DNA of 64,000 nucleotides from Deltaproteobacteria bacterium. GTDB taxonomy: Bacteria; Desulfobacterota; GWC2-55-46. Numbering within the stretch: position 1 is the stretch's first letter; the number at the start of each line of letters is the position of its first letter. The position numbers and the translations under genes were made by a program. The stretch covers positions 62,001 to 126,000 of the forward strand of contig JACOUO010000008.1 in the NCBI GenBank assembly GCA_016177845.1, in the 5' to 3' direction. Under the pieces are notes generated by a model. It was not told the origin of the DNA. It worked only from the letters and a program-made list of their open reading frames with translations, and searched no databases. Shown one piece after another: positions 1 to 57,122 of the stretch.

Positions 1-88
1 CCTCATCAACAAGCTCAAGGGCCGTTTGAATCGAACCGTTATGATTCACTCCGGCCTCGGCTATTATGAAAGTCCTTTTTCCATTCAA
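1..88 (-). CDS. N-acetylneuraminate synthase family (NeuB/SpsE-like), N-terminus only, truncated by window edge
   Basis: Reverse complement reads TTG start then LNGKRTFIIAEAGVNHNGSIQTALELVDE, the characteristic NeuB N-terminus (IAEAGxNHNG). GGAG lies 8 nt before the TTG. Not in ORF track because it is truncated. Confidence 0.8.
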   Translation of the reverse strand, partial: MNGKRTFIIAEAGVNHNGSIQTALELVDE

Positions 89-99
89 TGCAAAATCTC

Positions 100-753
100 C
101 TATGGAAGCTTAAGCGGATAAATTTCACCGCCTGATTCGAGATACGCGCCCGGCATCCCCGGATAATCAGTTGCCTTTACCCGTCTTTTTATTTCATCAT
201 CTGCCATATCCTTCGTAACCCGGCAAAGCTCGTCGAGTTCTTTCCTTGTATATGGCTTCCTCTTCCACTGCTCGCTGCTCTGAGGCATAGGCTCTCCGGA
301 GAGCATGATGCGGAATATCCTCACAAATGCCGGATATATATACGCGTAGCATCTCTGCGTTACGGTATAAACCGTATCCCTGTCAAATACAGGGAAACGC
401 TCCACATGAATGATCTTGCCTGTATCCACCTTTCTTTCCATATGATGGACTGTGATACCAAACTCCCTTTCCCCGTTATACACTGCGAAATTCGTGCATC
501 CTATGCCGGGATACTCAGGAGGGCCTGGGTGAAAGTTTATGGCGGCTATCTTTGCATTTTTAAGCACCTCTTCAGGGACTATCCATGGGGAAATATATGA
601 GATAACATAATCAAATTTCCTCTCCTTGAGGTGTTGAGGCAAAAGGTCTCCCCTTTGTCCAAATACTATCTCCGAACCTTCGGCATGCATCCTTACAAGC
701 TCGGCGGCATCCTCTGAGTACGGCTTATGTTTAGCGAGAAAAAGAATTTCCAT
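100..753 (-). CDS. formyltransferase-family protein (methionyl-tRNA formyltransferase-like fold, probable sugar N-formyltransferase)
   Basis: INFHPGPPEYPGIGCTNFAVYNGEREFGITVHHM..DTGKII motif of the formyltransferase fold; position among nonulosonic acid genes. Confidence 0.75.
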   Translation of the reverse strand: MEILFLAKHKPYSEDAAELVRMHAEGSEIVFGQRGDLLPQHLKERKFDYVISYISPWIVPEEVLKNAKIAAINFHPGPPEYPGIGCTNFAVYNGEREFGITVHHMERKVDTGKIIHVERFPVFDRDTVYTVTQRCYAYIYPAFVRIFRIMLSGEPMPQSSEQWKRKPYTRKELDELCRVTKDMADDEIKRRVKATDYPGMPGAYLESGGEIYPLKLP

Positions 754-780
754 TTTATCCAGACACCCAAAATTGTAATC

Positions 781-1944
781 TTACCTTTTGAAATAATCCT
801 TTACAGCATTTGTTACGAAAGCGATATCCTGTTCAGAGAGGCTTACGCTGCACGGCAAATTAAAGCAGGTCTCATACGCCTCATTTGCCTGCTCTATAAA
901 ATAATTCTGATAATTCTGATACATCCTTAAAGTAGTAAGCGGTTTCCAAAGCGGCCTTACCTGAATGCCGCGCGCCAAAAGGGTTTCCATCAGCCCGGCT
1001 TTATGCTCTTTTGCTGCCTTCAATGTATAAAACCAGAAATTGCTTCTGGCACCCTGCGACTCCCAGACGAGATCGACCTCTTGAAGGCCTGAGAGCATAT
1101 TTTTATAAAGCAGTGCGTTCCTGCGCTTCACCAAGACAAACTCATCGATCCTCTCCATCTGGGCCACCCCTATTGCGGCTTGCACATTAGTAAGGCGATA
1201 GTTATATCCTATGTCGTCATGGTCGTACTCAAAACTGTCGCTTTTTGCCTGTGTAGTCAGATGTTTTATCCTTGCAGCGCGGTCCCGGTCCCCTGTCAAC
1301 ACCATTCCTCCGCCGCCTGTTGTTATTATCTTGTTGCCGTTAAAAGAGAAGCAGGCCATCAAGCCAAAAGAGCCGGTCTTTTTTCCATTCAGCTCTGACC
1401 CGAGGCTTTCAGTCGCATCCTCGATTATGTCTATGTTCCTTTGAGAACAGATTTTTATAAGCTCATCCATTCTTGCCGGATGGCCGAAGACATGGACCGG
1501 GATCACTGCCTTTATTCTTTTTTTAGTTGTTCTGTTGCAGGTAAACCCGTCAGAGCGCTGAAAGCATTCCCTTTCAATAAACTCAGTGAATTTTGAAATA
1601 TCGATGCACAGGGTCTCGGGGTCGCAGTCCATGAATACCGGTGAAGCGCCGCAGTACCTCACTGCGTTTACAGGAGCGATAAATGTAAGGGCAGGCACAA
1701 TGACCTCATCCTGCGGCGAGACTCCGAGCGCCACGAGGCTTATGTGCAAAGCAGAGGTGCCGTTAACAGTAGATACTGCGTACGCGCCTCCTACATACTC
1801 GGCCATCATCTTCTCGAAACGGGAAACATATTCGCCCGCTGAGGAGACCCAGCCGGTATCAAGGCATTCCTTTATGTAGCTCCATTCATTACCCGAGATT
1901 TCAGGCGAAGAGAGCGGAATTTTTTTTTCTATGTCCTCAGACAT
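781..1944 (-). CDS. PLP-dependent DegT/DnrJ/EryC1 aminotransferase, LegC-like
   Basis: PLSSPEISGNEWSYIKECLDTGWVSSAGEYVSRFE start and FSFNGNKIITTGGGGM active-site Lys region typical of LegC-type aminotransferases. Confidence 0.82.
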   Translation of the reverse strand: MSEDIEKKIPLSSPEISGNEWSYIKECLDTGWVSSAGEYVSRFEKMMAEYVGGAYAVSTVNGTSALHISLVALGVSPQDEVIVPALTFIAPVNAVRYCGASPVFMDCDPETLCIDISKFTEFIERECFQRSDGFTCNRTTKKRIKAVIPVHVFGHPARMDELIKICSQRNIDIIEDATESLGSELNGKKTGSFGLMACFSFNGNKIITTGGGGMVLTGDRDRAARIKHLTTQAKSDSFEYDHDDIGYNYRLTNVQAAIGVAQMERIDEFVLVKRRNALLYKNMLSGLQEVDLVWESQGARSNFWFYTLKAAKEHKAGLMETLLARGIQVRPLWKPLTTLRMYQNYQNYFIEQANEAYETCFNLPCSVSLSEQDIAFVTNAVKDYFKR

Positions 1945-2935
1945 GATATATCTCGTCTTTATAGCCTTTCAGGTTTTCACTTTTCCTGAACCACTCTATT
2001 GTTCTGAGCAGGCCTTCGTCCAAGCTATAGCGCGGAGCCCATCCGGTAAGCCTTCTGAGCTTCTCGGAATTCCCGAGCAGCCTTTCCACCTCGCTCTTCT
2101 CCGGCCTGAGCCTTTGCGCCTCTGCGATAACCTTCGCCTCAGGATTTATTAATTTTATTATGAGCCCTGCAAGCGAACCAATTGAGGTCTCATTCTGAGT
2201 CGCGATATTGACTTCCTCTCCGGCATTGATATCAGAGGCCGCGATGCGTACAAAACCTTCTACCGTGTCTTTGACATAGACGAGATCCCTTGTGGGATGC
2301 AATGAACCAAGCCTTATCTCTTTTTTACCTGAGAGCAATTGTGTGATTATGGCAGGTATCACTGCGCGCGCGGACTGCCTCGGGCCGTAAGTATTGAACG
2401 GCCTTACGATAACAATATTCTGGCCAAAGCTCCGCACAAAGGACTCCGCCAAAAAGTCAGCGGCTATCTTTGTGGCTGAATAAGGCGACTGGCCTTGCCT
2501 GGGATGGGTTTCGTCAATGGGGACATAACGGGCCGTCCCGTACACCTCGGAAGTGGATGTAACGAGCACCTTGCTCACGCAGTGGTCCCTTGATGCCTGT
2601 AGTACGTTCAGAGTACCTTTTATGTTCGTGTCTATGTAGCTGTCAGGAGAATGATAGCTGTAAGGTATGCCTATAAGAGCGGCAAGATGGAATACAGCTT
2701 CAGAACCTTGCACAGCCTTTCTCACTCCATTCGGGTCCCTGATGTCGCCTGTAAATATTTCTACATCTTTGATGGCATTCTTTGGCAGCGAATCAAGCCA
2801 GCCCCAGGAATTGAATGAGTTATAGCAGACAAAGGCCTTGACATGGCAGCCTTCCTCAAGAAGCCTTTCGACAAGATGGCTTCCGATAAAGCCGCATGCC
2901 CCTGTTACCAAAACTTTTTTATTTGAAAGATTCAT
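1937..2935 (-). CDS. NAD-dependent 4,6-dehydratase/epimerase, LegB-like
   Basis: KVLVTGACGFIGSHLVERLLEEGCHVKAFVCYNSFNSWGWLD, YSATK catalytic motif; overlaps the LegC-like gene by 8 nt. Confidence 0.82.
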   Translation of the reverse strand: MNLSNKKVLVTGACGFIGSHLVERLLEEGCHVKAFVCYNSFNSWGWLDSLPKNAIKDVEIFTGDIRDPNGVRKAVQGSEAVFHLAALIGIPYSYHSPDSYIDTNIKGTLNVLQASRDHCVSKVLVTSTSEVYGTARYVPIDETHPRQGQSPYSATKIAADFLAESFVRSFGQNIVIVRPFNTYGPRQSARAVIPAIITQLLSGKKEIRLGSLHPTRDLVYVKDTVEGFVRIAASDINAGEEVNIATQNETSIGSLAGLIIKLINPEAKVIAEAQRLRPEKSEVERLLGNSEKLRRLTGWAPRYSLDEGLLRTIEWFRKSENLKGYKDEIYHV

Positions 2936-2955
2936 TTAAAAAACCTCTTTATATA

Positions 2956-5913
2956 TCAGAACGCCACTAACAAGACGCCTGCAGTGACAGCAATCTGGTA
3001 GAGTATCTGGGTCAGGTCCTTGGTCTCTTTAAGCCAGGCTATCTTGTCTAGCTTCTCGGGGACCACGATCGTATCACCGGGGTCAAGGCGCTGGGCCATG
3101 AGGCTGTTCGTAGTCCAGCTCTTTAAAGAGCTGTCCCATTTTATGCCGGACCATCCCGAACTGTAGCCCAAGGCTGTTCCGTCCACCTTAAGGACATATA
3201 TGTCTTTCTTTTCAGCGTCCCGGGTCAAGCCTCCGGATTTTTTGATATACGACGACATTGTTGCCTTAGGGTCATATACAAAGGCTGTCTGGTTATGCAC
3301 GGAACCTATTACCTGGATCTGGTCAGGCCGGTCCGGGATGACAAGACTGTCTCCTTCTTCCAGTGCCATGTCATACACAGAACCCTTGAACCTCTCAAGC
3401 GTATCGAGGTTTATGCTTATCCTCCCTATAGCCTTGGCAGCTCTCAGCTTAGTCATAAGGGCCATCCTCTGGTCGGCAACACCCTGCAGTTGCTTAGCTT
3501 CATCAGGGGCAAGCGCTTTCTGCATTGATTCGGAAGAGTGCATCAACAGCTTCTGTTCAAACCTGTTTATTGCCTCGTCTATGTTTTTCTGCTGAAGAAG
3601 CCGTACTGATTCCCTGGTGAAAACAACGCCCTTAAGATATGCCCTATCTGTGTACCCTCCTGCCCTCTCTATTACAGAGCTGAGAGTTTCTCCTTTTTTA
3701 ATAAGATATTGCCCCGGGAAAACGACTTCCCCTGTAATGGATACGAACATCTCCTCTTTCCATTCGGGTATCTTCTTAACGTAAAGGCTGTCATGAGGCC
3801 TCAGGGCGACATTATGGGCAGGGTCTCCGGCCATGGCCTTGCCAAGATTTATTTTCCGGTAATTTATGTTGTAGCTCTTACGGCCCTCGACCACGCCTGA
3901 AGCTATCTCGGCTTCTTCAAAAAACGCAGATTCAAGCAGATTGCCAGCCGCAAATACAAGATCGCTCACCCTCCAATTCGAAGCATATTCATAATTTCCG
4001 GGCCTTGTGACCTCACCCTTTATCATTACGAATTGCTTCGGGGACATCTCCCGCACCGAATGAACTACTACCCTGTCCTGCTCTTTCAGCAAAATGTTAT
4101 TTGCCGTATCCGACTCCATTGCCTTGGCAAGGTTCAGCTTCATTGTATTTACGATCTTGGTACCGGGGTCTGTCCTATAGAGCTCAAATTCTTCGAAAGA
4201 GGCGTCTTTTGTAGCGCCTCCCGCAAGCAGGATCAGGTCCTTGATAGTGAAATTCTTCTGCAGCTCAAAATCACATCTCTTGTACCGGACCTCTTTCCCT
4301 GTCTTTTTTTCACCGGCGCTATCTTCGCTATCCCCTTTATCAGCGGTCACAGGTACCATGCCGTTCTCAGTGCTGCATCTTACTTCCCCTTCTATGGTCA
4401 CTTTTGGTTTCTCCCTGAAAAACCACTCCGAAAAAACATAGATGGAATCCTGAGAGGCAAGCGGGAGATTCTCGCCCTGCACACCTGAAAAAAGTTTTCT
4501 GAGATTGAATGGCATGAGCTCAGGCTCCATATTAGGCGGCCTAAGCCTTTTTATGAGACCGTATTCAAGATGTGTCTCGCTGGCAAGATCGCTTTCATTT
4601 TTCAGGATGTCCTTAAGCCTCATCCCGGCCTTGATTTCATATTTGCCGGGTCTTTTGACATTGCCGTGAAGGAAGATAGCGTTTACATCCTTTTCGTTTA
4701 TCGCGGTGATCTTCACAAGGTCGCCATCCTGAAGCTTGAACCTGCCTGCGGCCTTGGTGTCCTTGGCGTTGATATCGATTACAATCCTTTTTTCATTGCC
4801 CTCGAACCTTTCAACCTCAATTCGCTGTGTGTAGGCTGTAGGTATTATTCCCCCGGCAAGCTCAAGGGTACTGGCCAGGTCGGAAATATTGGTCAATTCG
4901 TAAACAGCCGGCCTTTTTATGTTGCCGGCTATTCCCACAAGCGAGCCTACGGTGGGCACGAATATCACATCCCCGTTATGGAGCCTCAGGTCCTTGGATT
5001 TGTCTCCGGTTAAGAGCAGGTCATAGAAATCCATTTTGATAACAGTCTTACTGTCCCTTTTAAGCTCCACCTTTCTTAATGACCCGATTCCGGTAGGGCC
5101 GCCTGACAGCATCAAGGCGTTTGTGAGAGTGGACATCGCGCTTACAGTATAAGCCCCCGGCTTTTTCACCTCACCGAGAACAAAGACCTGGATGCTCCTC
5201 AACCTTCCCATCGTAATGCTTATCTCGGTTCCTATAATATTTTTAACCCGCCGGGTAACGGCTTTCTTCATCTCCTCAAAAGTCATGCCGCTGACATTGA
5301 TTGGCCCTATGTTTGGAAAATGAATCATACCCTCCCTGCTCACAGTAAGGGTATACTGCCCGTTTATCCTGCCCCACACGAGTATATTGATTTCATCATC
5401 CGGCCCTATTATGTAATCAGAAGCTACAGGCAGGTCCTGGGACGAGTTTACAATGGCATTATTGAAAAGGTCATAGCCGAACGGCTTTAATTTAGTGGAG
5501 ACTTCCAATGCGGAGGAATCAGAGATATATCTTTCGAAAAGAGACTCCTCAGGTTTGGAAGGACTGGGAGGCGGGGCTGGGGATTGTTCCTTGTTTTCCT
5601 TTTGCTTTAGTATGGATCTGCCCTTGCCGACTTCTTCCGGCTTTATATCTTTGAACTCATTATTGGTATTGAGCTCATCAAAACCTTCGGGCGTGATTCC
5701 CTTATCAAGACTCTCCTGTGGGATTATGCCGCAATTAATACAAGGCTCTGCTGAAGCGGCGGCTGCAAAGCTTTCCGCGCTTGAAAGCATGATAAGTAAA
5801 ATCAGTACTGTTTGAATGACTGCTGAAAATCTGAAGCGGAGCGGTTTGACCGCCCGTCTTTCAGACCTGTAAAGAACTTTCGAGAAGAAATCTGTAGCTA
5901 CTCCAAAACTCAT
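2956..5913 (-). CDS. polysaccharide export protein with multiple SLBB domains (Wza-like)
   Basis: Poly_export motif (YIIGPDDEINILVWGRINGQYTLTVSREGMIHFPNIGPINVSGMTFEEM) followed by about seven SLBB-like units (GxVxxPGxYxxxxxxxLxxxIxxAGG). ORF extends to 5988; ATG at 5913 has AGGGG upstream and precedes a signal-like segment. Confidence 0.88.
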   Translation of the reverse strand: MSFGVATDFFSKVLYRSERRAVKPLRFRFSAVIQTVLILLIMLSSAESFAAAASAEPCINCGIIPQESLDKGITPEGFDELNTNNEFKDIKPEEVGKGRSILKQKENKEQSPAPPPSPSKPEESLFERYISDSSALEVSTKLKPFGYDLFNNAIVNSSQDLPVASDYIIGPDDEINILVWGRINGQYTLTVSREGMIHFPNIGPINVSGMTFEEMKKAVTRRVKNIIGTEISITMGRLRSIQVFVLGEVKKPGAYTVSAMSTLTNALMLSGGPTGIGSLRKVELKRDSKTVIKMDFYDLLLTGDKSKDLRLHNGDVIFVPTVGSLVGIAGNIKRPAVYELTNISDLASTLELAGGIIPTAYTQRIEVERFEGNEKRIVIDINAKDTKAAGRFKLQDGDLVKITAINEKDVNAIFLHGNVKRPGKYEIKAGMRLKDILKNESDLASETHLEYGLIKRLRPPNMEPELMPFNLRKLFSGVQGENLPLASQDSIYVFSEWFFREKPKVTIEGEVRCSTENGMVPVTADKGDSEDSAGEKKTGKEVRYKRCDFELQKNFTIKDLILLAGGATKDASFEEFELYRTDPGTKIVNTMKLNLAKAMESDTANNILLKEQDRVVVHSVREMSPKQFVMIKGEVTRPGNYEYASNWRVSDLVFAAGNLLESAFFEEAEIASGVVEGRKSYNINYRKINLGKAMAGDPAHNVALRPHDSLYVKKIPEWKEEMFVSITGEVVFPGQYLIKKGETLSSVIERAGGYTDRAYLKGVVFTRESVRLLQQKNIDEAINRFEQKLLMHSSESMQKALAPDEAKQLQGVADQRMALMTKLRAAKAIGRISINLDTLERFKGSVYDMALEEGDSLVIPDRPDQIQVIGSVHNQTAFVYDPKATMSSYIKKSGGLTRDAEKKDIYVLKVDGTALGYSSGWSGIKWDSSLKSWTTNSLMAQRLDPGDTIVVPEKLDKIAWLKETKDLTQILYQIAVTAGVLLVAF

Positions 5914-6307
5914 AATAAACCCCTGTAAAAAATAAGGGTCTACCTTGTCCAACCTTGAAACAGAAAAGGTGTCAGGCCGCAAGCCCAATACGGAATTGAC
6001 ATAGCCTGAAAGGAATTTTATTTGGGTTCCTTAATGAAAAAAGAGGAAAGAACTGTAGCAGAAAAAACGGGGAACGAAGAACAATCGAAGGGAAAATCAA
6101 AATGCATTAAACGGGAACCAGAAACAGACTGGATAAAATTTCAAGTTAACAAGATAAACTTTTCTAAAACGGAATTACGCCGGCAATTGCCTCCCATGAA
6201 TCAAAGCTGTAGCTTATTGATACTATATAATATAAAAAATTCCAATTCAAGTTCTTTTTAGCTGCAAGGCCTTGTTAAACCTAACAAAATTTAAAAACCT
6301 TCGAGCG

Positions 6308-7801
6308 TCAGAAGTTATAATCAAGCCCTGCCCATATGCTGTGCGGCGTAAGATTATTTCCTTCAATGCTGTCTATGTTTTTTCGCCAATCAACAGCATA
6401 GCCTGCCGAAAGTTTCAGACCTCGCTCAAACTCCTTTACCCATGAAAACAACGCCGTCCTGTTTTTTGCCTTCACATTATTCTGGAGTCCTGTCGTCTCA
6501 GAATCAAAGCTAAAGATGAAAGAGCCCGGCCTGCCTGCGTTGAGAGTGGCCTCAAAAAAAATATCCCTCGCGTCTGAGCCCATATGATGTCCAATTATTT
6601 CGCCCTTGTATTTGTAGCCTGTAGAATAGATGTGATGCGTATACCAGACTCCGGGCTTATTCTTTACATGATTGTCAGCGTATTCTCCCCTGAGCGCGAG
6701 TTGTTTTGCTCCAATGACCCTGGGCAGATAAACCCCTGCTATGTATCCTATATGGGAAGGCAGCATACCTGCCTCATCTTCCCCTCCTATTTCAGAGTAA
6801 AATACAAAGGGCTGTAAATCCCATGGTATTACCAATTTCACGTCAACCGATGCCAGCTGATTGCCTGGCTCAGAGGCAGAATTCTCATTTCGAGCAAGAA
6901 AGGCATCAACTACTGTCCCGAAGTCAACTTTCCTGCCGCCTCCTCCAAACATTGCAACCCTTGAAAGCCCTACACTAAATAAAGGGTGCGGCTTCAGATC
7001 GAGCCTGAGGCCCGTAAGATACGGTTTGCGTAAATCCCTTTGCGACTCAAGCCTTGTAGCGAATGCCGTAAACTTAAAAGGGCCCAGATAACTGAAAAGC
7101 CAAGGCAGAAGAGTTGGCTCAGGGTTAGTAATTTTTATGAGGTCGAAAGGCTTTGCGTTATTGCTTATAAGAAGAGCTCCATGATACCCCGGTCCCCACC
7201 AGAGGCTTTCTCTTCCAACTGTCAGCTCCATATTCCCGAAGGTCAAAGAGCCGTACCCCTCCAGTACCTCTATTACAGTTCCATCTGTGGCTGTATCTCT
7301 GGCATCTTCCGGATACCTGACCTGCGGGTTAAAAAAAAATGAGAAATTCCTGTTCAGCCTGCCACTCGATACAATGCTCAGGCTGTAATTCGACCCGGAA
7401 GAAAGGTCCTTGCCCCTGTTGTTGTAATTCAATGCGTGAGCAGAATCAGAGGTGTAGGCATACATGGCCTTTGCGGACTCAACCGGATTGAGATAATAGA
7501 TATCCCGGTATTCAATCTCATTTTTAAAATGATCCTTAACCCGCCTGAGCAGTTCCTTGGACTGCGGGCTCATTATAGATTCGTTCTCTGAAGCCTCTGT
7601 GACAAGTCGCGCACCTTCAAGCCTCGTTAAAGGCATGTTCGATAAAAGGCCGCTTTTTATATGCCCTTCAGCTTCAAGCCTATCAAGGGCGCAATAGACC
7701 CAACTTCCTACAGGTACATGAGCGGAATTGCCCGCTTTCCCCTGAGCAGGCAAAAAAAACAGACCGGCCAGGACTATGATTAAAACCCTCAGACAGGGCA
7801 T
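6308..7801 (-). CDS. capsule assembly Wzi-family outer membrane protein
   Basis: Signal peptide MPCLRVLIIVLAGLFFLPAQGKA, then Wzi-family pattern (GRESLWWGPGYHGALLISNNAKPFDLIKITNP, C-terminal WAGLDYNF). ORF track start is 7876; internal Met at 7801 fits the signal peptide. Confidence 0.8.
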   Translation of the reverse strand: MPCLRVLIIVLAGLFFLPAQGKAGNSAHVPVGSWVYCALDRLEAEGHIKSGLLSNMPLTRLEGARLVTEASENESIMSPQSKELLRRVKDHFKNEIEYRDIYYLNPVESAKAMYAYTSDSAHALNYNNRGKDLSSGSNYSLSIVSSGRLNRNFSFFFNPQVRYPEDARDTATDGTVIEVLEGYGSLTFGNMELTVGRESLWWGPGYHGALLISNNAKPFDLIKITNPEPTLLPWLFSYLGPFKFTAFATRLESQRDLRKPYLTGLRLDLKPHPLFSVGLSRVAMFGGGGRKVDFGTVVDAFLARNENSASEPGNQLASVDVKLVIPWDLQPFVFYSEIGGEDEAGMLPSHIGYIAGVYLPRVIGAKQLALRGEYADNHVKNKPGVWYTHHIYSTGYKYKGEIIGHHMGSDARDIFFEATLNAGRPGSFIFSFDSETTGLQNNVKAKNRTALFSWVKEFERGLKLSAGYAVDWRKNIDSIEGNNLTPHSIWAGLDYNF

Positions 7802-7925
7802 GCAAGCCTCATTGATGTATTTAATAAATGAATGATTTTTTGCAAAAAACACCCTTGCGAATGGCCATGGACCCATTTTTCAATTATATACCAGAGTACG
7901 AATCCGCGTTGGCTTATTTGGAAAT

Positions 7926-32150: not shown

Positions 32151-33095
32151 TCAATAGTTACTGCTCATTTTCGCAAGCTCGGCAACACCCAAGCCTGCCA
32201 AGAGGTTATTTACAGATTCAAGCTCCATCTCCGCCCTGGCCTCTCTGGCGTAGGAGCCTATATGAGGGGTAAGGATTACATTAGGGAATTCCCTGAGAGA
32301 TCCGGTATACGGCTCTTCTTCAAACACATCAAGCGCGGCCCCGGAAATGCGGCCGCTTTTCAAAGCTTCGTAAAGGGCTGATTCATCAACAACACCTCCC
32401 CTTGAGGTGTTTATAAGACATGAGCCCTGTTTTAAAAGGCCTATTTCCATTGAGCCCAGGACTGTTTTTACAGGAGAAGCAGGCGAGACATGGATTGTTA
32501 TTATGTCTGCCCAGGAAAGGAGCTCAGATAATTCAACCTGCCTGCAGCCAATGGCAGGGGTCGAGCAGCGCAGGTCGTAATACGATATTTCCACCCCAAA
32601 CGGAAGGAGCAGTGCGGCAACTTTTCTGCCTATTCTTCCAAACCCTATAATGCCAAGCTTTTTGCCGCTTAGGAGGCTGCCCATGACCTTACGCCATTTG
32701 CCTGAGCGGATATCGCGGTCCATCTCAGTTATCCTCCTCATCAGGTCGAGTGCGAGGGCCACGGTAAGCTCAGCAACTGCCGGTGTGGGCCCGTAAGGGG
32801 TGCTGTAAACAGATATCCCATACCTGTTTGCAGCCCTCATATCTACATTGTCAAGCCCGGCGCCGCAGCGCGATATTACTTTAAGCCCTTTAAGGCTCTC
32901 CAGGACCATGCCATCCAGCGGTTCGGTTCCGGCGATGATTCCCGAAGCCTCTGAGGCGAGGTCTAAGACTTCCTCCCGCTTTAGGGTTCTGCCGTAAGGG
33001 TTCATAACCGGCTCTAAACCCGCTTGCTTAAGCAGCTCAAGAGGCGAGCCGTCATATTTGCCAAATGAAGTCGTTGAAATAAGTACTTTTTTCAT
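32151..33095 (-). CDS. D-isomer specific 2-hydroxyacid dehydrogenase (phosphoglycerate dehydrogenase-like)
   Basis: SRCGAGLDNVDMRAANRYGISVYSTP; LGIIGFGRIGRKVAALL; INTSRGGVVDESALYEALKSGRISGAALDVFEEEP. Confidence 0.9.
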   Translation of the reverse strand: MKKVLISTTSFGKYDGSPLELLKQAGLEPVMNPYGRTLKREEVLDLASEASGIIAGTEPLDGMVLESLKGLKVISRCGAGLDNVDMRAANRYGISVYSTPYGPTPAVAELTVALALDLMRRITEMDRDIRSGKWRKVMGSLLSGKKLGIIGFGRIGRKVAALLLPFGVEISYYDLRCSTPAIGCRQVELSELLSWADIITIHVSPASPVKTVLGSMEIGLLKQGSCLINTSRGGVVDESALYEALKSGRISGAALDVFEEEPYTGSLREFPNVILTPHIGSYAREARAEMELESVNNLLAGLGVAELAKMSSNY

Positions 33096-33439
33096 GATGT
33101 TCATCTCTCTATGAGTTCACAAATGCAAATATTCCAAAAACACAAAAATAAAAAACCAACTCTTTTGCCTTAAATTTAAGTGGCGCCCATGAGTTAGTTC
33201 AGTAATGGGGCCCAATAAAATAGGGACAAACACATGACTTGAATTCTATTCGCTAATTTCGGGGATTTGATACAGGCGGAACAGGGAGAGAGCAGAAGCA
33301 ATCAGGACACTTTTAAAAACTTCCAGGAAGCGGAATCAACACATCGTTCCGCGAATGAAAGTGCCCGATTTCAAACGAGATATTCGAAACCTTTTCAAAA
33401 TCACCTTGTAGCTTTTAATTCATTTGCCTAAGTAGAATA

Positions 33440-33454
33440 GCAATAAGCGTGCCA
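33440..33454 (-). promoter_or_regulatory. sigma-54 (RpoN) -24/-12 promoter for the polysaccharide operon
   Basis: Minus strand reads TGGCACGCTTATTGC followed by T, matching TGGCACG-N4-TTGCW exactly; points into the minus-strand operon. Confidence 0.82.
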
Positions 33455-33554
33455 CACTAATTAAAAAAACAGGCTCATTTTCCTATAGAATTTTACAGAT
33501 ATTTTTTTCGCTTTTCGAGGAATGAACAAATGTGTGGAAAAAAATCAACACATT

Positions 33555-33570
33555 GTAAGGCGGTCCTTAC
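33555..33570. promoter_or_regulatory. inverted repeat GTAAGG-N4-CCTTAC, candidate enhancer-binding site
   Basis: Perfect 6-bp arms about 100 bp upstream of the -24 element, the usual range for sigma-54 activator sites. Confidence 0.45.
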
Positions 33571-33696
33571 ACTTTTTCAAAGGCAGGCGAAATTTTGAAT
33601 ATGAGCTTATGCCATCGCATCCGCACCGACTTCTTCTGTATAATCTTTATAGAAGGTTTTTATGATAAGGACATTGGCAGGGTATATCCGCTCATC

Positions 33697-33721
33697 AAAA
33701 AAACCCGCCAAAGGCGGGTTT
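33697..33721 (-). terminator. Rho-independent terminator of the DEAD-box helicase gene
   Basis: Minus strand AAACCCGCC-TTT-GGCGGGTTT followed by T-run. Confidence 0.88.
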
Positions 33722-33760
33722 GAAATTCATCTCTGATCAGTTGTTTACTTCCGATTTTAT

Positions 33761-41950: not shown

Positions 41951-43339
41951 TCACATCTTTATTATCTCAAGGAGCTTGCACTTCTCCCAGAGCGTCTTTC
42001 TGGAAACGCCAAGAAGCTTTGCCGCAAGGGTCTTATTCCCTTTAGTCTCTTCAAGCACTTTTGTGATGTATTGTTTTTCAAAATCCCTCATCACCTTTGT
42101 CAGGTGCTCATAGCTCTGGATATTCTGCAATACCTTAAAGCAATCGCCGATATTGTTATTATTGACCTCTTCCGAGAGGTCCCAGGGGTGTATCTCATCC
42201 CCCTTGCTCATCACTACTGCCCTTTCAACAATATTTTCAAGCTCCCTGACATTTCCGGGGTACGGGTATTGTAAAAGAAGTTCAACCGCATCTATTGAGA
42301 ACCCCTTTATATTTTTTTTGTAATGCTCGGAGAAGTAATTGAGGAAGTGGTTGGCAAGCAACATTACATCTCCCTTGCGCTCCCTCAAAGGAGGCAGGGT
42401 TATCGGGACGACATTGAGCCTGTAGTAGAGGTCTTCCCTGAATATCCCCTTCTGCACCTCTTTTTTCAGGTCCCTCTGCGTTGCGCATATGATCCTCACA
42501 TCAACGCTTAGGGTCTCCGTGCCTCCGAGCCTGTCAAACTCCCTCTCCTGCAAAACCCTTAAGAGCTTTACCTGTATGGCAGGGGATATCTCGCCTATCT
42601 CATCAAGGAAGAGAGTGCCTTTATTGGCAAGCTCAAACCTGCCTTTTTTCTGCTTTATGGCGCCTGTAAAAGCGCCCTTCTCATAGCCGAAAAGCTCTGC
42701 CTCAAGGAGTGTCTCGGGAAGCGCCGCGCAGCTTATCTTTACAAAAGGTTCGTTTCTCCTTTGGCTGTTGAAATGCACTGCATTGGCGACAAGCTCTTTA
42801 CCTGTGCCGCTTTCCCCGAGTATAAGCACTGTGGAGTCAGTCTGCGCGACTATGAAGACCTTATCGAATATCTCCTTCATCTTCTCGCTCTTGCCTACAA
42901 TGCCGCTGAAGTTATACCTGCCTTCAACCTGCTCTTTTAGCATCATATTCTCCTCTTCAAGGTCTTTAAACCTTATGAGGCGCTTGACCATCAGGAGGAG
43001 TTCATCCATTGAAAAAGGTTTGGTTATGTAATCGTATGCCCCGTACTTCATCGCCTCTACAGCCGTATCAACGGAGCCGTAGGCAGTGATAAGTATCACC
43101 TGGGTATCAGGGGAGTTGCGCTTGCACGATTTAAGCACTTCGACCCCGCCGATGTCAGGAAGGCGCAGGTCGGTTATAACGATATCGTAAGAGGTCTCTT
43201 TGCTTGAGTTTATGCCCTCTTTGCCTGATTCGGTCTCGTGCACGATATAGCCTTCTTCCTTGAGGGCGTCGCTTATCGATATCCTCATCAAAGGCTCGTC
43301 ATCTATCAACAGTATCTTTGGTGTCCTCGGCACTTCCAT
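41951..43339 (-). CDS. sigma-54-dependent response regulator (NtrC family)
   Basis: Receiver domain, GESGTGKELVANAVH, GAFTGA, C-terminal Fis-type HTH (GNKTLAAKLLGVSRKTLWEK). Confidence 0.94.
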   Translation of the reverse strand: MEVPRTPKILLIDDEPLMRISISDALKEEGYIVHETESGKEGINSSKETSYDIVITDLRLPDIGGVEVLKSCKRNSPDTQVILITAYGSVDTAVEAMKYGAYDYITKPFSMDELLLMVKRLIRFKDLEEENMMLKEQVEGRYNFSGIVGKSEKMKEIFDKVFIVAQTDSTVLILGESGTGKELVANAVHFNSQRRNEPFVKISCAALPETLLEAELFGYEKGAFTGAIKQKKGRFELANKGTLFLDEIGEISPAIQVKLLRVLQEREFDRLGGTETLSVDVRIICATQRDLKKEVQKGIFREDLYYRLNVVPITLPPLRERKGDVMLLANHFLNYFSEHYKKNIKGFSIDAVELLLQYPYPGNVRELENIVERAVVMSKGDEIHPWDLSEEVNNNNIGDCFKVLQNIQSYEHLTKVMRDFEKQYITKVLEETKGNKTLAAKLLGVSRKTLWEKCKLLEIIKM

Positions 43340-43345
43340 CCTCCG

Positions 43346-45610
43346 TCAAACAGCTATTGGCAAATATATCTTAAATGTCGTACCTTTTCCAAGCTGGCTT
43401 TCAACTTCTATCCTGCCCTTGTGCCTCTCGATTATACCACGGCTTACCGACAGGCCCAGGCCTGTGCCTTTACCGACACCCTTGGTCGTAAAGAACGGGT
43501 CAAATATCTTGGGCAGATTATCGGCGGCGATACCGCACCCGTTATCGGAAACAAGTATGCAGTACCAGTTGCCTTCAAACCTTGTCGAGACCTCTATTAC
43601 GCCCTCTCCGTCAACGGCCTGTATGGCATTGAGGATTAGATTTACAAGTATCTGCTCCATCTGGTGCTTGTCAGCGAAGATGCTCGGCAGCCCCTGCCCG
43701 AGCTTTTTGACAAGCCTTATATCTTTGCCTTTGATGATATGGAGGAACAAGGGAATGATTCCCTCTATCATTATGTTTACATCTGTAAGCCTCAGTTCCG
43801 GTGCGTGCTGCTGCGAGAAGTCCAGAAGCTGCCTTACGATGTTCTGCACCCGCTTAATGCCTTCTTCCATGAAATCAAGGTACTCTGCCTTACGAGCCTC
43901 GGTAAGCTTCTTATGCTTGAAATTATAGAGACAGTTAAGTATCCCGCCAAGCGGATTATTTACCTCGTGCGCTATGCCAGCGGCAAGCTGGCCGATTGCG
44001 GCAAGTTTCTCGCTTGAGATGATGCTTGCCTCTATCTCCTTGTTCTTTGTTATGTCCTCTGCCATCCAGACGACATAGTCCGCAGGCCCTGAGCTCTCCG
44101 ATAATATCGGGAATATGCTTATCCTTAATGAGATGACCTTTCCTTCCGAGTTTGTTATCTTCTGCTCAATGGTCCTGCCCGAGCCTGTTTCAAAGACGCT
44201 GTTCATCACTTCATACAGCCCTCTTTTGATCTCAGGATTTGCAAGGTGGACAACGAAGTTAAGGTTTGAGCAGTCCTCGCCCTCTTTGCAATTGCATACG
44301 GGGCACGCCTTTGAGGCGTGCCTGTTCCATACGACTATCGACATGTTCCTCTCAACGACATAGAGGCAATACGGAAGGCTGTTTATAATCGACTCGATAA
44401 GGTTTTTCTGCTGCCTGAGCTTATCCTGGCTTACCTTTATCCTGTCTTCGTTATCGCGCAGGCTCTTGACCATGATATCAAAGGTCCTTGCGAGGTCTGC
44501 TATCTCGTCATTGCCGTCCTTTTGCGTTCCGACGCGGATATTGAGATCTCCCGTTGAAACAAGCTGCGCCTTTTTGGTTAAGGATTTTATCGGCCTCGTT
44601 ATCATGTATGTGATAAATGAGGCCACACCCGTTGCCATCAGCAGGCCGACAAGGGCTATGGTCGTGACTGCTTTTATGTTCCTGTACTGGAGCTCTACAA
44701 ACTTTTCCTTTGGCACGCCCACAAAAAGCGACCCTATTATCTTTGCATCGTGGTTGATAATCGGGTCAAACGCAGTGATGTACTGCTTCTGGGCTATTGA
44801 GGTCTCTCCCCTGAAGCTCAGGTTCGTATTTATCTCACTGATGACTTCCTTGGGTATTAGATGCCCAATGGTCCTGTGTCCGTTCTCATCCACAACATTG
44901 GTGGCTATCTGGACATTACCCATCGCTATGGTGACAAGAGAGCCGGGGATGCTCTCGGCAAGGCTGTCAGAGACGAATGAGTCATTATTCATCAGGTCGC
45001 CGGTGATGATTGCGCCTATCACCTTATCGCTGCTGTCCATAACAGGGGTTACTACTATCAGCATCATCCCGTCATTAAGCTCGCCCTCATTTACCAGTTT
45101 GCCGCCTTTCTCGGTCACAAGCGGCACATTGGCAAGCCCTGCTATTCCATCCTCGCGCAGTATTTCATTTGAGACTATTTCGGTTGAGATGAAAGATTTT
45201 TTCTTCTGGAAGGCCTTCTGCACAAGGCCGTTGAATGAGAGGGGCACGCCGGACTTAAGATTATTCTGGGATGCGATAGTGATTGCCTTGCTGTCTACAA
45301 CCGCCCAGAGGTCAACATAGGGCCTGAATTTATTCCACGCCTTGAGCTGTTCCTTCAGTACGGTTTTATCTTTCCTGATTATAGACTGCTTTATATAGAC
45401 TTCGGTAGATGCCTGAAGCATTCCGTATTGCATCTGGTATGCCCTTGCGTAGTACTGCATCCACGCTGCCTTGAGGTTATGGTTAATGGTCTCCTGGGCA
45501 TCGTCTTTTTTACTGCTGCTTATGATCGTGGTTGTGAGAAAGGCCAGAAAAATAGTAGGCAGAAGCGTTACGACGAGAAAGGAAAATATGAGTTTACTGC
45601 CTATGTTCAT
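43346..45610 (-). CDS. sensor histidine kinase (Cache-like sensor, HAMP, PAS, HisKA, HATPase)
   Basis: Two TMs flanking a periplasmic domain; AAGIAHEVNNPLGGILN H-box; NLILNAIQAVD; FFTTKGVGKGTGLGLSV. Confidence 0.93.
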   Translation of the reverse strand: MNIGSKLIFSFLVVTLLPTIFLAFLTTTIISSSKKDDAQETINHNLKAAWMQYYARAYQMQYGMLQASTEVYIKQSIIRKDKTVLKEQLKAWNKFRPYVDLWAVVDSKAITIASQNNLKSGVPLSFNGLVQKAFQKKKSFISTEIVSNEILREDGIAGLANVPLVTEKGGKLVNEGELNDGMMLIVVTPVMDSSDKVIGAIITGDLMNNDSFVSDSLAESIPGSLVTIAMGNVQIATNVVDENGHRTIGHLIPKEVISEINTNLSFRGETSIAQKQYITAFDPIINHDAKIIGSLFVGVPKEKFVELQYRNIKAVTTIALVGLLMATGVASFITYMITRPIKSLTKKAQLVSTGDLNIRVGTQKDGNDEIADLARTFDIMVKSLRDNEDRIKVSQDKLRQQKNLIESIINSLPYCLYVVERNMSIVVWNRHASKACPVCNCKEGEDCSNLNFVVHLANPEIKRGLYEVMNSVFETGSGRTIEQKITNSEGKVISLRISIFPILSESSGPADYVVWMAEDITKNKEIEASIISSEKLAAIGQLAAGIAHEVNNPLGGILNCLYNFKHKKLTEARKAEYLDFMEEGIKRVQNIVRQLLDFSQQHAPELRLTDVNIMIEGIIPLFLHIIKGKDIRLVKKLGQGLPSIFADKHQMEQILVNLILNAIQAVDGEGVIEVSTRFEGNWYCILVSDNGCGIAADNLPKIFDPFFTTKGVGKGTGLGLSVSRGIIERHKGRIEVESQLGKGTTFKIYLPIAV

Positions 45611-54248: not shown

Positions 54249-54725
54249 CTCCGATTTTTGAATTATTTTTCAGCCAGTGTTTTTCAATTCTAACCGTTTT
54301 GAAATAATCCCTCAACAGAATTATAAAGGGCTAAATTGAAAAAAATTACCATTCATTATATCATAATTTAGGACATTTGACATAAGGGCTGCCTTACAGG
54401 CTTACCATGCCTTGACATTATCGAATTCACCTGCTTAAATCTAAGTATGCGAAAGCGCACCTGAACCTTATTTTTAAACCCGCTGCTGAGTTTCTCAAGC
54501 CTCCTGTTAATGCGGAACTGACCACCCCGAAGGCCGAAAGGCAAGCAAAACAGTTTTAAATAACTTAAACAAAGCCGCCAAATACGGAGAGAGGATTATG
54601 GATAGCAAATCCAAAAATTTCTGTTTTCCCATTTTATTTTCAACCAAACCTCCTGAATTCCCTTATCCTCTGCCGTATTAAACTCAATTCAAAGCACAGT
54701 TCAATCTCAATACGGGGGTACCTTT

Positions 54726-57122
54726 ATGAGCGTCGCGTTCAAAGAAGAATTTCCGTACCCTTCACCGGAGCCGTTTGGAAAGCCCGGAGTAACGCCTAAC
54801 TGGTCAAGAGCCTCCAAGCAGGGTATCGGCACATCCATCGGAGATGCCTCAAAGGTCTGGTTTACCATAGCCGACGGCGTAATAACCGAGGTCTACTACC
54901 CTACTATCGACACCGCCAATGTGCGCGACCTTAAATTCCTCATAACAGATTCAAAGACCTTCTTTGATGAGGAAGGGGTCGACACTGCCTCGACAATTGA
55001 ATACATCGATGCCAAAGCCCCTGCCTGGCACATAATAAATACTGCAAAATCAGGCAATTACAGAATAATCAAAAGGGTATTTACAGACCCCGCGTCCAAC
55101 TCCCTTATCATCAGCACACAATTCGAGGCGCTTAAAGGCAAAGTCGGGGATTACAAGCTCTATGTCCTTTTTGCGCCGCATATAAAAAACAGAGGTTATG
55201 AGAACTCAGGCAGGTGCGCTGATTATGAGGGGCGCAGCTTTATGTTTGCCCGGAGAGAGGATATTACCGCTGCCCTGACCTGCGATGTGCCGTTTACCCG
55301 CATGTCCGCGGGATATTCAGGTTATTCCGACGGCTGGCACGACCTTAAGGATAACAACAACATGGACTGGTCTTTCCAGAGGGCTGAAGAGGGCAATGTC
55401 GCGCTTATAGGAGAGATACCCATTGACAGGTTCAACCTTGTCCTGAGCTTCGGGAGAGACGAGGTAGAGGCGGCGCTTGACTCTGAGCTTGCCCTTTCAA
55501 GGGATATAAAAGAGATAGAGAGGGAATATATCAGAGGCTGGAAGAGATATATCAACAGCCTTGAAAATCTCGGCAGGGTGGCAGAAGACAGGGGCAGGAG
55601 ATTTTTAGCAAGCTCAATTGTACTAAAGACGCATGAGGACAAGACCTATAAAGGCGGGCTTATTGCCTCGCTTTCAATACCCTGGGGTGAAGTAAAAGGA
55701 GATACGGACGGCACAGGATACCATCTTGTCTGGGCAAGGGACCTTGTAAAGGCTGCCTTCGGCTTCATGGCAATGGGGGATGAAAAGACGCCGTCAGATA
55801 TATTGAGATTCCTCCTCAATACCCAGAATCAGGACGGCTCATGGCCTCAGAACATGTGGATAAACGGCAAGCCCAACTGGGAATATGTCCAGCTCGATGA
55901 AGTAGCCCTGCCCATAATGCTTGCGTGGAGGCTTAAGGGCATGGGGGTTGCGGGCCACGAGTTCTATCCCATGGTCAAGAAGGCCGCTGGCTATCTGGTC
56001 AGGAACGGGCCTGTTACGGAACAGGAACGGTGGGAGGAGAACATGGGCTTTTCACCTTCAACCCTTGCCGCAGAGGTCTCATCTCTCATCTGCGCGGCAA
56101 ACTGGGCGCTTGAAATGGGTGAAGAGGCAGACGCGCAGGTTCTCTTTACGACAGCAGATGCCTGGAACTCAAGGATTGAGGAATGGACATTTACGGAGTG
56201 CGATTGCATCGGGGAGAATATACCCGGCCATTATTTAAGGATAGTCCAGCAGGTCTCTGAATCACTCACCCCTTCGGAGCAGCTCTGTCATGCGCTTGTC
56301 TTTAACAGGAACAGGCCGCATGACATGCCGCACCATCAGGGTGAGCTTGTCGATGCGGGCTTCCTTGACCTTGTAAGGTTCGGCCTCAGGTCTCCTAAAG
56401 ACCCGAGGATAATGAGCTCCATCGAAGTGGTCGATAAGCTCCTGAGGTTCGAGGGAGACAATAAAGTAGCTTTCTACAGGTTTAACGGGGACGGCTACGG
56501 AGAGACGGAGGACGGCTCACCTTTCCGGGACTCAGGCGCAGGCAGGCCTTGGCCTTTGATAACCGGAGAAAGGGCCATGTACGAGCTTATGGCAGGCAGA
56601 GACCCATTCATATATTTAAAGTCTTTTGAGGAATTCGCCAATGAAGGATTGATGTTCCCGGAGCAGGTATGGGACAGGGACGATATCCCTGAAAAGCGTC
56701 TGTATAAAGGCAAAGGCACAGGGTCGGCCACCCCGCTCATGTGGGCGCACTCTGAATACATAAAGCTTCTGAGGTCAGTAAAGGACAATAAGGGCTGCGA
56801 CCTTATAGACGAGGTCAAAAAGAGATATGTCGATCTTGGCATCGAATTCCGCATGGCTGAATGGAAAAAGGATAAGCCGATAACCATCGCAAGGTCAACT
56901 GAGATAGTAAGGATCATCTCTTTTGAGAAGGCAAACATCGTCTGGACAAATGACAACTGGCAGACCAAATCAGAGGACACTATGGTTGAGACTGGTTTGG
57001 GCCTCCATTACATTGATTTCAAACCGGGCTCTTTGAAGTCGGAATCAAGTCTCATTTTCACTCTCTACTTCCCGAACACAGGCAAGTGGGAAGGCAAGGA
57101 CTACGCTATAAGGATATTCTGA
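54726..57122 (+). CDS. glycoside hydrolase family 15 glucan 1,4-alpha-glucosidase/glucodextranase-like
   Basis: SIGDASKVWFTIADGVITEVYYPTIDTANVRDLKFLITD; YHLVWARDLVKAAFGFMAMGD; LLNTQNQDGSWPQNMWINGKPNWEYVQLDE; WPLITGERAMYELMAGRDP. Confidence 0.94.
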   Translation: MSVAFKEEFPYPSPEPFGKPGVTPNWSRASKQGIGTSIGDASKVWFTIADGVITEVYYPTIDTANVRDLKFLITDSKTFFDEEGVDTASTIEYIDAKAPAWHIINTAKSGNYRIIKRVFTDPASNSLIISTQFEALKGKVGDYKLYVLFAPHIKNRGYENSGRCADYEGRSFMFARREDITAALTCDVPFTRMSAGYSGYSDGWHDLKDNNNMDWSFQRAEEGNVALIGEIPIDRFNLVLSFGRDEVEAALDSELALSRDIKEIEREYIRGWKRYINSLENLGRVAEDRGRRFLASSIVLKTHEDKTYKGGLIASLSIPWGEVKGDTDGTGYHLVWARDLVKAAFGFMAMGDEKTPSDILRFLLNTQNQDGSWPQNMWINGKPNWEYVQLDEVALPIMLAWRLKGMGVAGHEFYPMVKKAAGYLVRNGPVTEQERWEENMGFSPSTLAAEVSSLICAANWALEMGEEADAQVLFTTADAWNSRIEEWTFTECDCIGENIPGHYLRIVQQVSESLTPSEQLCHALVFNRNRPHDMPHHQGELVDAGFLDLVRFGLRSPKDPRIMSSIEVVDKLLRFEGDNKVAFYRFNGDGYGETEDGSPFRDSGAGRPWPLITGERAMYELMAGRDPFIYLKSFEEFANEGLMFPEQVWDRDDIPEKRLYKGKGTGSATPLMWAHSEYIKLLRSVKDNKGCDLIDEVKKRYVDLGIEFRMAEWKKDKPITIARSTEIVRIISFEKANIVWTNDNWQTKSEDTMVETGLGLHYIDFKPGSLKSESSLIFTLYFPNTGKWEGKDYAIRIF

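Follow-up and report, generated by a model that had tools for sequence, protein, structure and literature searches.

The gap ahead of a long polysaccharide locus in the 3.0-Mb draft genome (30 contigs; G000) of an uncultured deltaproteobacterium is best read, from its sequence, as containing a sigma-54 promoter together with an upstream activator site. The window, i.e., the whole stretch of 64,000 nt that was analyzed, belongs to contig C16, and its coordinates equal C16 coordinates minus 62000. In the proposed mechanism, the sigma-54 promoter would start transcription at about position 33428 into a polysaccharide gene run of approximately 56 kb. A phosphorylated GvrA-like response regulator of the NtrC family would bind at 33571-33554, perhaps also occupying a weaker second site 21 bp nearer to the promoter, and would activate the sigma-54 polymerase by contacting it via looping. 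The likeliest activator would be an orphan regulator, L018, whose gene lies at the opposite end of this locus. A swap of two blocks of the locus turned the formerly internal gene 1 into the operon head. The full statement, that a gas-vesicle-type activator at the palindrome at 33571-33554 drives the sigma-54 promoter of the polysaccharide run, is given a probability of roughly two in three.

The -24/-12 element, TGGCACGCTTATTGCT (33454-33439, minus strand), is situated in the 656-bp gap between a helicase gene and gene 1 (33105-33760), and it is oriented toward gene 1. It matches all 12 scored positions of the consensus TGGCACG-N4-TTGCW, and 0.00035 matches of this quality were expected by chance in a Markov simulation of both strands of the gap. 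Five perfect sites were found in the whole genome; all five are intergenic, and each is directed at a gene. The genome contains one copy of rpoN and about 19 sigma-54 activators with strong AAA activator domains. A sequence-only reading of this DNA had reported the exact RpoN consensus at this position and had presupposed rpoN and an NtrC-type activator; on these points it was borne out. The element very probably represents a real sigma-54 promoter.

On its upstream side, the gap contains the intrinsic terminator of the RhlE-type helicase gene (33697-33721, minus strand), which had been recognized in the same reading and is indeed real, with its stem at 33701-33721. On the other side, the position of the element predicts a transcription start at 33428, followed by GCAA (33428-33424, minus strand), and a 5′ leader of 324 nt (33428-33105) ahead of gene 1. 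This gene (32151-33104, minus strand) encodes a D-isomer-specific 2-hydroxyacid dehydrogenase, and its true start is probably the second ATG at 33095. The leader matched no known RNA family and showed no unusual structure (z = -0.11). No known RNA element was found in the window at gathering thresholds, and weak sub-threshold matches occurred around the terminator of the gap.

Two further observations concern the surroundings of the promoter. First, six of 15 sigma-54 promoters of G000 (L024-L048) have GCAA at +1 or +2, where it forms TTGC-N-GCAA together with the -12 element, and none of 19 promoters of relatives has it at this place; this pattern was spotted post hoc. Second, the region 33614-33679 (plus strand) is an 88% identical copy of the start of a TIGR03546-family gene in the same genome, comprising its promoter and initial codons (G000:C24:151629-151695, L083). 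The copy stops after a few codons and is a duplication relic beside the new promoter.

The proposed activator site is the palindrome TGTAAGG-N4-CCTTACA (7 + 4 + 7 nt) at 33554-33571. It had been reported at 33555-33570; the location was right, and each arm is one base longer. A distance of 99 nt separates its near edge from the -24 element, in agreement with the earlier estimate of about 100 bp, and its center is about 132 bp upstream of +1, which is within looping distance (roughly 80–200 bp). A generic 7 + 7 inverted repeat is expected 0.57 times in 306 bp, and thus significance of the palindrome in its own right was rejected. Because generic repeats of this size are common, an independent test was required, and the palindrome turned out to be significant solely because it matches a specific site. 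That it might be a frequent motif was also rejected, since a genome search revealed no second copy with up to one mismatch. A sequence with two mismatches, CATAAGGGCTGCCTTACA, is present elsewhere in the window (54380-54397), in the gap before a gene for a 798-aa protein at 54726; within 250 bp of this sequence, no sigma-54 site reached 9/12.

The specific site was found in gas-vesicle clusters. The cluster of G000 (contig C14) has the order kinase gene, activator gene (L017), two dyads 21 bp apart (TGTATGTCTCTCCTTACA and TGTAGAGCCTCCGCTACA), sigma-54 site, and gvpA. The genome G021 has the same layout with the same distance of 105 nt between dyad and sigma-54 site, and its dyad differs from the window palindrome by one mismatch. 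The layout recurs in G003 (131 nt) and G002 (64 nt), where gvpA is preceded by a small gene for a response regulator. All four clusters therefore have dyads 21 bp apart, followed after 64 to 131 nt by a sigma-54 site. From these clusters, eight upstream sites were used to build a symmetric matrix, with the window left out. The window palindrome scored 19.9 bits, within the range of the training sites (12.2–23.3 bits) and above all shuffled controls (mean of the maxima 2.8, highest of 5000 at 16.8 bits). The sequence-only reading had taken the palindrome for the docking site of an enhancer-binding protein, and the match to the gas-vesicle activator site is consistent with that role.

Additional evidence comes from the context of the copies. 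Among the 15 best genome copies (at most two mismatches from the palindrome), two have a sigma-54 site of at least 10/12 within 250 bp downstream, namely the one in the window and the one at gvpA. Exactly 21 bp downstream of the palindrome, as in the gas-vesicle promoters, an imperfect second dyad is found, TGTTGATTTTTTTCCACA (33533-33550, minus strand). Six of its eight outer bases are right (0.005 per position), and its score with the full matrix is -0.1 bits. Given this score, it was treated as suggestive only of a weaker second activator site. An ungapped match of 31 nt between the window and the gvpA region spans the first dyad and reaches the beginning of the second dyad (E = 0.004). As this match around the dyads was all that the two regions share, common descent of the two promoters is unsupported. 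We propose paired TGTA-N10-TACA 18-mers, 21 bp apart, as the binding site for gas-vesicle sigma-54 activators; the literature searched contained no published site for these proteins. The gas-vesicle type is the best-supported activator identity for the window promoter.

G000 has two sister activators of the gas-vesicle type, L017 in the gvp cluster and L018 at the far end of the polysaccharide locus. The L018 gene (C16:36754-38136) is separated by 444 bp from the gene that closes the polysaccharide run, and no kinase gene lies beside it. The two proteins are 71% identical and group together with support values of 100/99, and they are closer to each other than either is to the proteins of G021, G003 or G002. 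At the DNA-binding end, 33 of 44 residues are identical, compared with 19 of 40 for the next best protein of G000. Upstream of L018, the DNA shares homology with the region that precedes the kinase gene of L017 (62% identity over 292 nt, E = 5e-15), and thus the copy originated together with a kinase gene and lost it afterwards. The GAFTGA motif, the Walker A motif, and the receiver aspartate of L018 are all intact. The copy is lineage-specific and present solely in the genome whose locus bears the site. We infer that one of the two sisters drives the window promoter, most likely L018.

In an alternative scenario, the pair of the gas-vesicle cluster itself, i.e., the kinase and L017, would activate the promoter in trans, and L018 would be inactive or act elsewhere. 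L017 has kept its kinase and should recognize the same site, its DNA-binding end differs little from that of L018, and the site at gvpA is the other genome copy that bears a sigma-54 site. However, L018 is intact, it is encoded at the tail of the polysaccharide locus, and its occurrence is restricted to the genome with the site. This scenario is thus rather unlikely, albeit the best of the alternatives. With a kinase-less duplicate of the gas-vesicle two-component system at one end of the locus, and a matching sigma-54 promoter at the other end, where the block swap created a new operon head, we tentatively suggest that flotation and surface polysaccharide share one signal via the surviving PAS kinase; the odds are somewhat against this extension.

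The TGTAA half-site is also a feature of the PEP-CTERM/exosortase regulon, and membership of the window promoter in this regulon, with PrsR coordinating polysaccharide and matrix proteins, was considered. Sigma-54 sites before PEP-CTERM genes have been described for Proteobacteria (Haft 2006, PMC1569441). G000 contains seven PEP-CTERM genes and one exosortase gene, and two of its proteins exceed the cutoff for PrsR. An upstream sigma-54 site was found for six of the seven genes in G000 and for 32 of 36 across the family. In this lineage, the PrsR box is a 17-mer, TGTAA-N7-TTACA, which is present with at most one mismatch in 17 of the 32 promoters (0.36 expected), whereas a spacing of N8 between half-sites of this type was found in four. 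One PEP-CTERM promoter in G021, L137, has a similar N8 dyad that reaches the same 19.9 bits with the gas-vesicle matrix. This shows that the half-site is not exclusive to gas-vesicle activators and that the two types of site can overlap. Nevertheless, the best PrsR match of the window promoter scored just 0.9 bits, which is less than shuffled sequences reach on average (1.9 bits), while most true boxes score 10–20 bits. Moreover, the exosortase and PrsR genes are encoded on another contig. Since the window dyad has the same half-sites with one more base between them, it rather looks like the site of a related activator. With the 17-mer box absent, control by PrsR was rejected, and the regulon explanation is left with very little probability.

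Two features of the regulon are added for completeness. The box of PEP-CTERM genes across the family (L126-L166) can be written as TGT[AC]A[AG]-N5-[CT]T[TG]ACA, and it is often doubled, with the copies about 97 nt apart (e.g., L156, L157, L165, and L166). The two PrsR-family activators of G000 above the cutoff are encoded on contig C18 at about 107 kb (L012) and 110 kb (L004), about 2.7 kb apart and near the single exosortase gene.

The palindrome could also have a different function altogether, namely that of a repressor operator at a sigma-70 promoter, in which case the sigma-54 match would be fortuitous or dead. A sigma-70-like element with 10/12 matches, TTGAAA-17-TACAAT (33580-33552, minus strand), indeed overlaps the palindrome, which occupies its spacer and extends into the -10 box. 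In addition, a TTGACA/TATATA element is conserved at the locus heads of the relatives G004 and G014. However, three sigma-70-like sites were found in the region versus 1.6 expected, and thus a 10/12 match is weak evidence, whereas a sigma-54 site with 12/12 matches would hardly arise by chance, and the palindrome matches the activator site at other sigma-54 promoters. A repressed sigma-70 promoter is about as improbable as control by PrsR. Least probable is control by the pair encoded within the window, a kinase (43346-45610) and an AtoC-like activator of the NtrC family (41951-43339, minus strand), the latter not a PrsR protein (452.6 bits versus a cutoff of 502.6 bits). The pair is intact and, at a distance of about 8.5 kb, the candidate closest to the promoter. 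However, its activator has a DNA-binding end unlike the gas-vesicle type (19/40 to L018), orthologues with 77–84% identity in related MAGs suggest a separate, conserved system, and its upstream region lacks a good copy of the palindrome (best with five mismatches).

The preferred sigma-54 promoter with its gas-vesicle-type site precedes a gene run that is larger than had been thought. The sequence-only reading had described a 33-kb operon, which turned out to be too short because the edge of the window cuts it. The minus-strand run continues from 33104 to C16:38581 and comprises about 50 genes on about 56.5 kb (G000:C16:38581-95104). Block A (7926-33104, minus strand) encodes sugar-nucleotide enzymes, several glycosyltransferases, a Wzy-like ligase, a radical SAM protein, and a Wzz-like protein. 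The first part of block B (1-7876, minus strand) encodes a Wzi-like protein (6308-7876), an SLBB export protein (2956-5988), LegB, and LegC, and its remainder, outside of the window and up to C16:38581, encodes NeuB, NeuC, WbuZ-like and HisH-like proteins, an aldolase, and an epimerase. LegB, LegC, NeuB, and NeuC scored above the cutoff, and a UDP-sulfoquinovose-synthase-like enzyme in the run scored below it. By its gene content, the locus is a surface polysaccharide locus, and the polymer probably carries nonulosonic acid.

The run contains a single gap of more than 100 bp, which has a length of 319 bp (5989-6307) and precedes the SLBB gene. In this gap, one sigma-70-like element with 9/12 matches was found (1.3 expected), TTGAAT-17-TATAGT (6250-6222, minus strand), and it may drive the second half of the run separately. 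In G004 and G014, the two genomes with the conserved TTGACA/TATATA element mentioned above, the SLBB gene is the first of the locus. Together, these elements weaken the claim that one activator switches on the whole locus, and with block B starting near the 319-bp gap this claim is unsupported. Transcription from 33428 would drive block A and might extend into block B.

Orthologues of gene 1 with 63–73% identity are present in G021, G004, G014, and G024, which belong to one other genus of the same family. In all four genomes, the gene is operon-internal and directly follows the aldolase gene, while the aldolase orthologue of G000 lies 55 kb away from gene 1, near the tail of the run. The locus halves are thus in opposite order (REARRANGEMENT), with block B before block A in the relatives and A before B in G000. 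Aldolase-like genes are also found just ahead of gene 1 in some distant members of the phylum, either directly (L211) or with one gene in between (L199, L200, and L208). The order shared by relatives and distant members indicates that the order in G000 is most likely the derived one. The label "circular permutation" would fit G004 and G014, in which the Wzi-like gene closes the locus, but not G021, in which it opens the locus, and therefore "block swap" is the safer term.

As gene 1 is internal in the relatives, the window promoter is located at a joint that exists only in G000. Conservation of the -24/-12 element upstream of orthologous loci, which had been named earlier as a check, is literally absent: no sigma-54 site of at least 10/12 was found at the locus heads of G021, G004, and G014, the three relatives with a complete head. 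The internal position of gene 1 in these genomes accounts for this result.

The proposed system resembles known ones in part. In Serratia sp. ATCC 39006, the NtrC-family regulator GvrA controls a sigma-54 promoter before gvpA1, for which the transcription start was mapped and a consensus sigma-54 site was reported (PMC4982088). Similarly, the gas-vesicle clusters analyzed here have the activator gene in the cluster and a sigma-54 promoter before gvpA, and L017 and L018 resemble GvrA by architecture and position. In contrast to Serratia, a kinase-less duplicate is encoded outside of the gvp cluster, next to the tail of a polysaccharide locus that is preceded by a matching site. The window promoter also resembles those of the PrsK/PrsR regulon (PMC1569441; Aquincola pepA, PMC9850573), in that a dyad with TGTAA/TTACA ends is followed by a -24/-12 element. 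Unlike the PrsR box of 17 nt with N7, however, the window palindrome has 18 nt with N8 and scores at background level with the PrsR matrix.

Sigma-54 has been described as a controller of the bacterial exterior, with promoters associated with genes for exopolysaccharides and other surface molecules (Francke 2011, PMC3162934), and thus RpoN control of exopolysaccharide loci, which the sequence-only reading had mentioned, is a known theme. A further paper deals with NtrC control of exopolysaccharide (PMC5491218). The literature searched did not clearly connect gas-vesicle activators of the sigma-54 type with polysaccharide. What is new is that a duplicated gas-vesicle regulator has apparently captured a polysaccharide locus. 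This offers a concrete, testable case of switch rewiring within one locus, comprising duplication of a regulator, loss of its kinase, rearrangement of an operon, and a new binding site. If the proposal is true, one regulator would act on both buoyancy and the polysaccharide coat, which are among the traits that determine whether a cell floats, sticks, or sinks.
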